From the NCBI RefSeq assembly GCF_008124865.1, contig NZ_VNHY01000002.1:868001-932000 (forward strand): DNA of 64,000 nt, read 5' to 3'. Shown here piece after piece: positions 36,491 through 40,666 of the stretch. A model generated the notes under the pieces. That model was not told the origin of the DNA. It saw nothing but the letters and a program-made list of their open reading frames with translations, and did no database searches. Made by a program: the position numbers and the translations under genes. This stretch comes from Fodinibius salinus. GTDB taxonomy: Bacteria > Bacteroidota > Rhodothermia > Balneolales > Balneolaceae. Every line of letters begins with the position of its first letter. Within the stretch, counting starts at the first letter, position 1.

Positions 36491-36525
36491 TGGCTCCTAT
36501 GCTTTGCGTAGGAGCCAATTTATTT
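36491..36525 (+). terminator. Transcription terminator after the M14 peptidase gene
   Basis: TGGCTCCTA (36491-36499) pairs with TAGGAGCCA (36509-36517), and three more pairs extend the stem to a TTT loop. It is followed by ATTTATTT, a weak U-rich tract. Confidence 0.8.
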
Positions 36526-36746
36526 AAATGCTAGGATCGATCACGATCTGGTTCCAATACTTGGTCCTAGAACCAGCAAATCGCGGCCTATTTTAGGTGG
36601 TAATTTTTGTTTTCTCTCTACCTACGTCTTTATCATCAAAATGAGGAGAATGTTTCCAGCTGCGCTGGGAGCTATCAGTATTTATTTAGCCTTATCTTTT
36701 GAAACTTCCCCCTGATGCCTGTATCTTAGGGCGCATTCTAACTATA

Positions 36747-36836
36747 CCCAAGGTTGGGGGTGCTTGCAACAGCAGGCTGAGATCATACCCTAAGAACCTG
36801 AACCGGGTAAAACCGGCGTAGGGAAACCAGGTTGGC
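36747..36836 (+). promoter_or_regulatory. TPP (thiamin pyrophosphate) riboswitch, THI element
   Basis: The conserved core is plainly readable: GGGGGTGC near 36756-36763, GCTGAGA at 36776-36782 with ATACCC after it, GAACCTGAACCGGGT at 36794-36808, and CCGGCGTAGGGAA at 36813-36825. P1 is formed by CCAAGGTT on the 5-prime side and AACC-TTGG on the 3-prime side with a small bulge. When TPP binds, downstream gene expression is expected to drop. It precedes a TonB-dependent receptor, so the receptor most likely imports thiamin or a precursor. Confidence 0.95.
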
Positions 36837-36877
36837 AGGGATTTATCCTTGCTGCCGGATTGATCAGCATTTCTTGC

Positions 36878-36922
36878 AAGTTCATCTCCCGCTCTTATAA
36901 ATCTAATAAGACGGAGGAACTT
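36878..36922 (+). promoter_or_regulatory. Predicted ribosome-site sequestering helix (riboswitch expression platform)
   Basis: AAGTTC (36878-36883) and CTCC (36886-36889) are complementary to GAACTT (36917-36922) and GGAG (36913-36916). Together they give a 10-pair helix with a 2-base bulge. It buries the GGAGG ribosome site and ends directly at the ATG at 36923. No terminator-type T tract is seen between aptamer and gene, so control of translation is the better model. Confidence 0.6.
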
Positions 36923-39361
36923 ATGTTTTTTAAGATTATTCGAAGCACAGCCATTCTGTGTTTTTTCATGGCAATGAGTACTATGCTCTTTGCCCAAACA
37001 ATAAGCGGAACTGTAACAGACGGGCAGACCGGCAAAACGCTGGCCGGGGCTAATATTATCCAGTTGCAAACATCAAATGGTGTTTCGACGGATGAGAATG
37101 GATCATTTTCACTGACGCTTACCGATGATGCGCCTCAAAAAATAAAAGTGACGTTTGTTGGCTATAAAGCTAAAATCGTTCGGCTTGACGGAGCTGAAAG
37201 CTCGTTAACTATCACGCTCACACCTTCTACTATGATGAGTAATGAGGTATTTGTGAAGGCACTTCGCGTAGATAAAGCTACGCCCATGGCTTATGAAAAT
37301 ATCAGCAAAGCCAGTATTGAACAGAAAAATCTGGGTCAGGACATGCCCTATATGATTGGGAGCAGTCCTTCGGTTACTACCACATCAGATGCCGGAGCAG
37401 GCATCGGCTATACCTCTATGCGTATCCGCGGTGTCGATCAGGGTCGCATTAATGTGACGGTTAACGGTATTCCCATTAATGATGCCGAATCGCATGGTGT
37501 ATTCTGGGTGAATATGCCTGATTTAGCTTCTTCAGTTGAAAATATACAGGTGCAGCGAGGAGCTGGCACATCCACCAATGGAGCTGCCGCTTTTGGAGCA
37601 ACGATGAATATTCAAACGTCGGAAATGAAATCCGAGGCCTATGGAGAAGTAAATACAGCTATTGGATCATTTAACACCCGCAAAGCTAATGTAATGCTGG
37701 GTTCCGGATTGATGGATAACGGCTGGCAGTTTGAGGGACGACTCTCGAAGATAGAATCAGATGGATATATTGACCGGGCTTCTTCAGATCTGAAATCATT
37801 TTATCTGTCGGCGGCTAGGCATGGTGATCGCAGCTTGTTGCGTGCAGATGTCTTTTCAGGAAAAGAGAAAACCTACCAAGCGTGGTATGGTGTATCCGAA
37901 AGCCGGCTGCAGAATGGCAATAGAACCTATAATCCCGCAGGAGCCTATACCGATGAAAGCGGGAATACGAAGTATTATGATAATCAGACGGACAATTACC
38001 AGCAGGATCATTATCAGCTGCATTACTCTTATCAGTTTACCGATAACTGGGATGCTCGGGGGTCATTGCATTATACTTATGGGCGCGGTTATTACGAAGA
38101 ATACCAAGAATCCCAGGACCTGACACAGTACAGCATCAGTGATATCCAGCTGCCGGATACTACTATTCAGAAAAGTGATTTGGTGCGACAGCTTTGGCTC
38201 GACAATCACTTTTACGGCGCTGTCTTTTCAACTGAATATGTGCCCTCGGACCGTTGGTCACTCACACTCGGCGGCGGATATAATGAATATGACGGTGACC
38301 ATTTTGGAGAGGTTGTCTGGGCGCGTTTTGCCGGAGATACTAATGCTGATAAACGATACTATCAGAACAATGCGTTGAAGACAGATTTTAATTCCTATAT
38401 CAAAGCCAGCTATCAAATTATCGATGGGCTCACTGCCTATGCAGATGCCCAGATTCGTCATATTACGTACGAATTCTTGGGTAAAGATCGACAGCCGGCT
38501 CAGGGTGGTGGTCAACAGATTGTGGATGTACAACAAAAAGATCGTCTCACTTTCTTTAATCCCAAAGCCGGGTTGACGTATAATATTAATCAGCGCCATC
38601 GGGCCTATGCGTCATTCAGCGTGGCGAACAAAGAGCCCACACGCGACGAATATGTGGATTCTACTCCCGAAAATCGTCCGTCGCATGAAACCCTTTACGA
38701 CTGGGAAGCCGGATATAAAGGATCTTTTGATTGGTTTTCAGTGGGAGCGAATTTCTACTATATGAATTATCAGGACCAGCTTATCTTAACCGGCGAAATT
38801 AATGATGTGGGATCCAACGTGCGGCAGAATGTGCCCAGTAGTTATCGTGCAGGTATAGAGCTACAGGCTGGAGCACAGCTGTTGCCAAGTCTGGAATGGT
38901 CGGCCAATGCAACCTTCAGCCGCAATAAAATTGAGCAATATACGCAGTATGTCGATAATTATGATACTGGATCACAAGAGACGAATGTTTATACAGATAC
39001 TAACATCTCTTTTTCTCCGGATGTTGTTGCAAATACTATGCTTCAATTTTCTAAGAGAGGCTTGTCAGCTCAGTGGTCAGCAAAGTATGTTTCTCGACAA
39101 TACTTGGATAATACACAGACCAAAAGCCGGTCGCTTGATCCGTATGTTGTAAATAATTTGCGTATAAGATACAACTGGGAGACGGTACCGTCGTTACAAG
39201 CTATTAAAATAACGTTTGTGGTTAATAATATGCTTAATGAGATGTATGAGTCCGATGGATATACCTTTGGATATATTTCCGGAGGACAAAAAGAATACAG
39301 CAATTATTATTATCCGCAGGCCGGACGCAATTTTTTGCTACAGCTCTCGTTTAACTTCTAG
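36923..39361 (+). CDS. TonB-dependent outer membrane receptor, probable thiamin (or precursor) transporter
   Basis: ATG at 36923 is chosen because a GGAGG ribosome site lies 5 bases before it and the protein then begins with its signal peptide (cleavage near LFAQ, residue 24). The 812-residue receptor has an N-terminal carboxypeptidase-regulatory-like beta domain (ISGTVTDGQTGKTLAGANI), a plug (MRIRGVDQGRINVTVNGIPIND, VQRGAGTSTNG) and a barrel of about 600 residues ending in the aromatic strand LLQLSFNF. The TPP riboswitch directly upstream gives the substrate assignment; no inner-membrane thiamin permease follows. An intrinsic terminator ends the unit. Confidence 0.9.
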   Translation: MFFKIIRSTAILCFFMAMSTMLFAQTISGTVTDGQTGKTLAGANIIQLQTSNGVSTDENGSFSLTLTDDAPQKIKVTFVGYKAKIVRLDGAESSLTITLTPSTMMSNEVFVKALRVDKATPMAYENISKASIEQKNLGQDMPYMIGSSPSVTTTSDAGAGIGYTSMRIRGVDQGRINVTVNGIPINDAESHGVFWVNMPDLASSVENIQVQRGAGTSTNGAAAFGATMNIQTSEMKSEAYGEVNTAIGSFNTRKANVMLGSGLMDNGWQFEGRLSKIESDGYIDRASSDLKSFYLSAARHGDRSLLRADVFSGKEKTYQAWYGVSESRLQNGNRTYNPAGAYTDESGNTKYYDNQTDNYQQDHYQLHYSYQFTDNWDARGSLHYTYGRGYYEEYQESQDLTQYSISDIQLPDTTIQKSDLVRQLWLDNHFYGAVFSTEYVPSDRWSLTLGGGYNEYDGDHFGEVVWARFAGDTNADKRYYQNNALKTDFNSYIKASYQIIDGLTAYADAQIRHITYEFLGKDRQPAQGGGQQIVDVQQKDRLTFFNPKAGLTYNINQRHRAYASFSVANKEPTRDEYVDSTPENRPSHETLYDWEAGYKGSFDWFSVGANFYYMNYQDQLILTGEINDVGSNVRQNVPSSYRAGIELQAGAQLLPSLEWSANATFSRNKIEQYTQYVDNYDTGSQETNVYTDTNISFSPDVVANTMLQFSKRGLSAQWSAKYVSRQYLDNTQTKSRSLDPYVVNNLRIRYNWETVPSLQAIKITFVVNNMLNEMYESDGYTFGYISGGQKEYSNYYYPQAGRNFLLQLSFNF

Positions 39362-39667
39362 ATAGATATGTATAAACATCGTGATTTAGAAAGGGTCGGC
39401 TGGAAAGTCGGCCCTTTCTTTTTGTAATGTATAGCTCTAAAGTGTGGAAGCTTGACGCAGCTGTTAAGGTTAATTCTTAACGGATAAAGCAGAATTAGAA
39501 GCGGATGGGATTTTATGCATATCGGGGAAGAAAATTGCAATCGGGCAATAACCGGCTACTGATTTTTCGCTGGTTGTTTATATAGCAAATAAAAGATTTA
39601 TGCATTCTGGGGCATGCCTGAAACTTCTACCAAACTGACATCAAAATTCCAACTTGAAAAGCTACAA
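39362..39667. other. Convergent spacer after the TonB receptor
   Basis: The 306-base spacer between the receptor and the convergent EamA gene holds the receptor terminator in its first 65 bases. In the rest, I see no gene or other structure. Confidence 0.55.
39388..39423 (+). terminator. Rho-independent terminator after the TonB-dependent receptor
   Basis: AGAAAGGGTCGGC (39388-39400) pairs with GTCGGCCCTTTCT (39407-39419) through 13 pairs including two G-U, with a TGGAAA loop. Five T bases (39419-39423) follow. It lies 27 bases after the receptor stop codon. Confidence 0.92.
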
Positions 39668-40666
39668 TTATTCTGCATTGGTAAAGAATCGCACATCTTC
39701 ATCATTTGATATTTCTTTTTCATCTGTACTGGCTCGGTCGTCTATTACTTGTATAAAAATGGCGCCGGTAATAATGAATACGGCGGATATAATCTCCAGC
39801 CGGGACGGGTTTTCGCCAATACTGAGCCAGGCAATAAACAAGGCTGCAATGGGCACCATATTACCATAAAGTACCACCTGTGTAGGACCAAGTTTTTTAA
39901 GGGCTCGTACCTTTACCCATTGGCCAACGCCCACGCCAATAGCACCGCCGGCAATGATGGCAATCCAGGTCCATAGTCCAAGTGATTTCCAAGACACAAC
40001 AATAAGATCAGGAGAGGCAATGAGGATATATAACGTACCGCCAATGGCAGTACGAAGAGCGACAATGGGTACGGAACCGTATTTATTAGCTAGGGGTTTA
40101 ATAAGGTGCAGTTCAATAACGGTAAGGATAAGTGCAATAATTAAAATAGCATCTCCTAACCAATATCCCTGCTCAGGTTGTAATCCATCCCAAGCTAAGA
40201 TAATTGTGCCCACAACAGCTAGAACGACGCCTAAGTAACCATAGCCTCCCATTTCTTCGGTGCTAAACATATAACCAAATCCCGTGCTCACCGCAGGGCC
40301 CAGAGCCAGCCAAAGTGATGCCCGTGCGCCGTGGGTTAGTCCTAACCCCTCAATACCAAGCCAGGGAGCCAGCGTCGCACCAATGACCGAGATAAATAAT
40401 AGTCTTGGCCAGTCTTCTTTTTTTATCTGAGGTAAAAAGGAAATTTTATTATTAGTTTGGCGGCATTCCGAACGATATTGCAGGTACATTACCAAAAACA
40501 TAGCAATCCCGCCCATAGCAAACCGTGATACGCTAAATGATATGGGAGACATCTCCAGAAGGGCAATTTCTGCTAGAATGAAATTAGCACCCCAGAGAAA
40601 AACAAAAAATATAAGGATCCCGTGATGGGAGAGTGTCCCACCCCGGGAAAAGGTATTATTGTTCAA
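39668..40666 (-). CDS. EamA-family (DMT) transporter
   Basis: A 332-residue membrane protein with ten predicted helices arranged as two EamA repeats. The first covers FFVFLWGANFILAEIAL to about residue 165; the second starts with WLGDAILIIALILTVIE and includes the conserved AIIAGGAIGVGVGQWVKVRALKKLGPTQVVLYGNMVPIAA region. The family exports or imports small metabolites; the substrate is unknown. It sits 24 bases downstream of the DUF2911 gene on the same strand, so co-transcription is possible. Confidence 0.87.
   Translation of the reverse strand: MNNNTFSRGGTLSHHGILIFFVFLWGANFILAEIALLEMSPISFSVSRFAMGGIAMFLVMYLQYRSECRQTNNKISFLPQIKKEDWPRLLFISVIGATLAPWLGIEGLGLTHGARASLWLALGPAVSTGFGYMFSTEEMGGYGYLGVVLAVVGTIILAWDGLQPEQGYWLGDAILIIALILTVIELHLIKPLANKYGSVPIVALRTAIGGTLYILIASPDLIVVSWKSLGLWTWIAIIAGGAIGVGVGQWVKVRALKKLGPTQVVLYGNMVPIAALFIAWLSIGENPSRLEIISAVFIITGAIFIQVIDDRASTDEKEISNDEDVRFFTNAE

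Follow-up and report, generated by a model that had tools for sequence, protein, structure and literature searches.

The analysis indicates that a gene for a TonB-dependent receptor in Fodinibius salinus is very probably controlled by a translational TPP riboswitch that is OFF with ligand, and that the receptor probably imports thiamin or a precursor. The aptamer, a helix over the ribosome-binding site together with its co-variation, a competing pairing together with its co-variation, and a family-wide link between receptor and TPP aptamers are backed by computation. The following elements were located in the window, which is the whole stretch of 64,000 nucleotides that was analysed:

36491-36517, + strand: terminator-like hairpin 3' of the preceding M14 peptidase gene (terminator scan)
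36746-36841, + strand: TPP riboswitch aptamer, RF00059 (cmscan and whole-genome search)
36763-36769, + strand: CTTGCAA, which forms the 5' side of stem P3 in the aptamer and, alternatively, the aptamer strand of the competing anti-sequestering helix (ensemble and constrained folds, cognate versus swapped pairing)
36834-36856, + strand: variable hairpin in the interval between aptamer and conserved leader, varying in sequence and length among congeners (fold, leader comparison)
36861-36890, + strand: near-invariant leader TGATCAGCATTTCTTGCAAGTTCATCTCCC, the anti-sequestering strand (leader comparison, folds, co-variation)
36878-36922, + strand: sequestering helix, 36878-36898 pairing with 36906-36922 (fold, co-variation test)
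36913-36917, + strand: GGAGG ribosome-binding site (sequence)
36923-39361, + strand: TonB-dependent receptor of 812 aa, OMthi/Omr1-like (Pfam PF13715, PF07715 and PF00593; orthologues behind TPP aptamers)

Aptamer and helix over the ribosome-binding site

A covariance search of the window with the TPP model found one complete aptamer. RF00059 matched positions 36746-36841 of the forward strand at full length (model positions 1-105) with 67.8 bits and an E value of 3.4e-11 (cmscan), the gathering cut-off being 54.3 bits. The complete THI-box core that a sequence-only reading of this DNA had reported is therefore present. Stem P1 is formed by GGTT (36752-36755) and AACC (36825-36828). Besides the aptamer, Rfam models matched only one tRNA in the 64-kb window. 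The riboswitch transcript probably begins downstream of 36491-36517, because the terminator-like hairpin at this site follows the M14 peptidase gene.

The sequestering helix is built from three segments, AAGTTC (36878-36883) with GAACTT (36917-36922), CTCC (36886-36889) with GGAG (36913-36916), and TCTTAT (36893-36898) with ATAAGA (36906-36911). This amounts to about 16 pairs (6+4+6), interrupted by an AT bulge and a small internal loop, and the ATG at 36923 follows directly 3'. The sequence-only reading had described a helix of 10 pairs with GGAGG inside it and the ATG at its end. Coverage and position were correct, but the 10 pairs are only the lower part of the helix.

Leaders of receptor orthologues were read across the genus, the family and the order. 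In nearly all relatives read, a CTCC-type strand pairs with a GGAG just 5' of the start codon, while the sequence of the upper stem varies from genus to genus. Bulges and mismatches lie in different registers in different genera, so a pair count over a MAFFT alignment with one fixed structure was abandoned in favour of an arm-swap permutation. For the upper helix in 21 divergent genomes, the cognate arms paired with a mean of -1.82 kcal/mol, versus +0.26 +/- 0.27 kcal/mol for swapped arms, and none of 20,000 permutations paired as well as the cognate combination (z about -7.7). Recurrence before the receptor in nearly all relatives and co-variation of the upper arms argue that the helix is not due to chance. 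Taken together, the leader comparison argues strongly that an RNA helix is conserved here, one that would hide the ribosome-binding site.

A competing pairing between leader and aptamer

We looked for a competitor of the sequestering helix, since a helix of this strength needs one. The TGATCAGCATTTCTTGCAAGTTCATCTCCC stretch is nearly invariant within the genus, and the bases flanking it vary. Within this leader, TTGCAAG (36874-36880) is complementary to CTTGCAA of the aptamer (36763-36769), TGATC to a GATCA adjoining the ligand-binding loop, and UCUCCC to the G run of the aptamer. In other genera, the P3 arm of the aptamer and the leader change jointly, for example GCTTGTAC with TTGTAC. Cognate pairing of P3 arm and leader was better than swapped pairing (z -3.5, 0.02% of permutations, n=22 genomes). 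The signal was weaker with longer segments (0.05-3% of permutations), an earlier genome set gave 0.9%, and in a few genera (L074, L079, L084) the competing pairing is weak.

According to folding energies, which leave Mg2+ and tertiary contacts out, the competing helix of the window RNA is more stable than the unliganded aptamer by 11.1 kcal/mol in a nascent chain that stops just short of the 3' arm, and by 8.0 kcal/mol in the full-length leader. In constrained folds of the window RNA, local pairing of the site was 0.01 with the competing helix forced and 0.92 with the aptamer forced. By computation only, the alternative structure is thus predicted to be incompatible with the aptamer as well as with the sequestering helix. 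Among the sequences compared, that of the window switches best; for most congeners, the ensemble of the full-length leader hides the site even without ligand. The nascent chain was tested because equilibrium folding alone is insufficient in most congeners, and the ON state would therefore have to rely on co-transcriptional folding.

The competing pairing, which the sequence-only reading had missed, suggests a switch instead of a permanently closed site. In the absence of TPP, the leader (36861-36890) would pair with the 5' half of the aptamer, the CUCC strand would be taken up by this pairing, and GGAGG (36913-36917) would remain free, so that the receptor would be translated. With TPP bound, the aptamer stems P1-P3 would form and let go of the leader, and 36878-36898 would pair with 36906-36922, so that the ribosome-binding site would be hidden together with the bases that immediately precede the AUG. 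The earlier proposal that TPP turns the receptor off at translation gains comparative support from the co-variation of helix and competing pairing; the response to TPP itself would follow from this model.

The helix at 36878-36922 might instead be an intrinsic terminator (AUG-UUUUUU 3') acting by transcriptional attenuation, and the window does carry ATGTTTTTT directly 3' of it. However, this T run is missing in congeners (ATGTTTTCC, ATGTATTCC, ATGTTTACG) that keep GGAGG and its helix, the stem beside the T run is A-T rich, and the terminator scan has no entry for the helix. We rejected termination at this site as very improbable, because the T run is not conserved among congeners and the scan calls no terminator there. 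The helix might also be a permanent translation brake, with the aptamer having another target, for example the stability of the transcript or Rho-dependent termination within the untranslated leader. Dominance of the helix in the unconstrained ensemble of most congeners would agree with such a brake, but the leader just 5' of the helix is near-invariant, complementary to the variable stem of the aptamer, and co-varies with it across genera. As a permanent brake would need no co-varying, aptamer-complementary leader, we give it a very small chance compared with the translational switch. The homologous OMthi transcript of B. thetaiotaomicron hardly responds to thiamine (PMC5613172), which fits translational control without proving it. 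A 2017 study considered it uncertain whether TPP riboswitches of Bacteroidetes act at the level of transcription or translation (PMC5613172).

Receptor, thiamin genes and the inner membrane

The receptor has a CarbopepD_reg domain (PF13715), a plug (PF07715) and a barrel (PF00593), the latter two with scores above cut-off, and its N-terminal hydrophobic stretch reads as a putative signal peptide. TPP aptamers directly precede orthologues of 47-73% identity throughout the order, and a profile search identified strong relatives in 36 of 61 genomes spread over the phylum. In 80 further receptor loci, fetched by profile and mostly from other Bacteroidota, a crude motif detected TPP elements in 48, and of 15 locus records sampled, mostly from Bacteroidota outside Balneolota, 12 had an aptamer just 5' of the receptor according to cmscan. 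A PnuT-like gene was present within 3.5 kb at 15 of 80 homologous receptor loci. The TPP linkage across Bacteroidota suggests that the receptor is of the OMthi/Omr1 kind. By a crude scan, leaders had a GGAGG-like site in 5 of 40 homologous receptors outside Balneolota versus 6 of 8 otherwise. The site-hiding platform may be a Balneolota feature, since the outside leaders mostly have no such site.

The source genome (2.86 Mb) contains two TPP sites only, according to a whole-genome search. The thiC gene is absent from this genome and from 58 relatives, in a search whose control responded in 13 of 14. Judged by gene content, this salt-loving Fodinibius is predicted to be unable to make the pyrimidine half of vitamin B1. 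The other TPP site leads the operon thiL-thiD-tenA-ykoE-ykoD-ykoC-thiO-thiS-thiG-thiE, in which YkoE (PF09819), the ECF ATPase, the T component and TenA were assigned by profile, and thiL, thiD, thiO, thiS, thiG and thiE were named by eye from the sequence. The ykoE system was found in 5 of 59 genomes, all of them Fodinibius. PnuT is absent from the source genome, including the receptor locus, and thiamin pyrophosphokinase (TPK) is present, though not linked to the receptor gene.

A receptor cargo that is not related to thiamin, for example a siderophore or cobalamin, with TPP merely reporting general cofactor status, could be read from the NCBIfam matches of the receptor, which are to general models of siderophore, haem and B12 receptors and in every case score far under the cut-off. 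This reading appears most unlikely, as receptors of this family accompany TPP aptamers throughout the order and in other Bacteroidota, sometimes with PnuT close by, and as a genome devoid of thiC cannot make the thiamin pyrimidine. We therefore keep to thiamin or a precursor as the probable cargo, in line with the sequence-only reading, which the linkage of orthologues to TPP aptamers across lineages supports. The cargo cannot be narrowed to HMP because TPK is present, and gene co-occurrence does not fix it, because this receptor type is found both in congeners that have ykoEDC and in congeners that lack it.

It had also been claimed that no inner-membrane permease follows the receptor and that the second transport step must lie elsewhere. 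On the same strand this is true, and the next gene, an EamA-type transporter, is convergent. The search for further TPP elements beside permeases identified one, the operon with ykoEDC, and a second candidate is an SSF symporter beside TPK:

39668-40666, - strand: EamA-type transporter, convergent and not co-transcribed with the receptor, a neighbour kept in much of the genus
L103:6643-8778 (G000:C2:710.6-712.8 kb): SSF symporter behind TPK

YkoEDC is an HMP transporter (PMC5613172), and as a known type of HMP importer it would provide the pyrimidine with an inner-membrane route. The SSF sodium symporter (about 480 residues) is encoded directly behind TPK in 10 of 12 Fodinibius genomes. A genome of a sister genus (G032) has PnuT beside TPK in the same neighbourhood, which makes the SSF gene a good thiamin-permease candidate. 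The EamA transporter is a weaker candidate for the inner-membrane step. We infer that expression of the receptor responds to TPP, that the receptor carries thiamin or its pyrimidine part, and that its inner-membrane partner is YkoEDC and/or the SSF symporter. The genome context would thus provide a concrete two-membrane route, from the receptor to YkoEDC for the pyrimidine or to the SSF symporter for thiamin, with the latter as a new testable candidate permease in the place of PnuT.

Two tandem NMT1-like lipoproteins (L101:5960-8116, G000:C1:184-186 kb) were considered as part of a precursor ABC system and rejected, as their neighbours include no ABC permease or ATPase. They lie beside a membrane protein that resembles a sensor kinase and are possibly a periplasmic sensing pair. 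We also note a TPP-led operon of relatives (L039:860-3885, L040, L047, L059, L083, L085) with a methyltransferase, a ThiL-like protein, ThiE and a Trm112p-like protein, in genomes that lack thiC. Assignments are by Pfam for L039 and by gene order and size for the others, and the ThiL-like protein scores far below the ThiL cut-off. The operon possibly serves an unusual step of thiamin or pyrimidine salvage.

In three congeners, G002, G005 and G009 (L038, L046 and L058), the same slot holds a receptor that is only about 30% identical in protein (compared with L041 and with window 36746-40666). By nucleotide comparison, made for G002 and G005, the stretch spanning aptamer, leader and signal peptide retains 85-90% identity, the downstream neighbours are kept where compared, mostly with 70-88%, and the receptor body has 34-52%. 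A tree built from four housekeeping proteins of the flanks separates the three genomes: G005 falls into a group with G003 and G008 (support 99, with 52 inside the group), both carriers of the common receptor, and G009 is placed elsewhere. This scatter implies at least two receptor exchanges, with limited support. It seems somewhat more probable than the contrary that riboswitch, leader and signal peptide form a fixed control-and-export cassette, and that the receptor body was swapped more than once in the genus. If so, the cassette would suggest that the receptor surface is under selection (by phage, toxin or cargo) with vitamin control kept.

Some TPP aptamers of congeners have no clear gene behind them (L034, L042, L044, L048, L051, L052, L055, L057, L060, L064, L065, L068). 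Their P1 is long (GCCA..TGGC) and is often followed directly by a T run, which gives the aptamer itself the look of a terminator, and three of them (G008, G010, G014) follow the gene of a large RND/MMPL-like membrane protein. The whole-genome TPP search, with its two sites, found no such orphan in the genome of the window.

Comparison with known systems

In the translational TPP riboswitch of E. coli thiM, the bound aptamer frees the site-hiding strand, which pairs with the aptamer in the unbound state. The Fodinibius switch would follow the same two-state logic, but it would control an outer-membrane receptor, whereas thiM encodes a kinase, and its long competing helix would take up the P3 arm of the aptamer and the pyrimidine-binding loop. 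YkoEDC is an ECF-type HMP transporter of Gram-positive bacteria. The Fodinibius system resembles it in having YkoE (PF09819), a T component and a fused double ATPase, all encoded in one TPP-led operon, but in this Gram-negative genus the outer membrane has to be crossed first.

TonB-dependent receptors linked to TPP riboswitches have likewise been proposed for thiamin in the case of OMthi (BT2390) of B. thetaiotaomicron, which is encoded with pnuT-tnr3 (PMC5613172), and of Omr1 of environmental surveys (PMC10881298, PMC12442306). Deletion of OMthi raises the thiamine need of B. thetaiotaomicron if biosynthesis or PnuT is also missing (PMC5613172). Unlike OMthi, the Fodinibius receptor gene stands alone, in a genome that has no PnuT and in a Balneolota host instead of gut Bacteroidetes. 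A further difference is the Fodinibius expression platform, which would hide a GGAGG site. Both mutually exclusive structures are now given base by base with co-variation, in Balneolota, the sister phylum of Bacteroidetes, and the mechanism is therefore directly testable in a short RNA. The kind of control is itself already known, and the Fodinibius switch is a well-supported new example of it.
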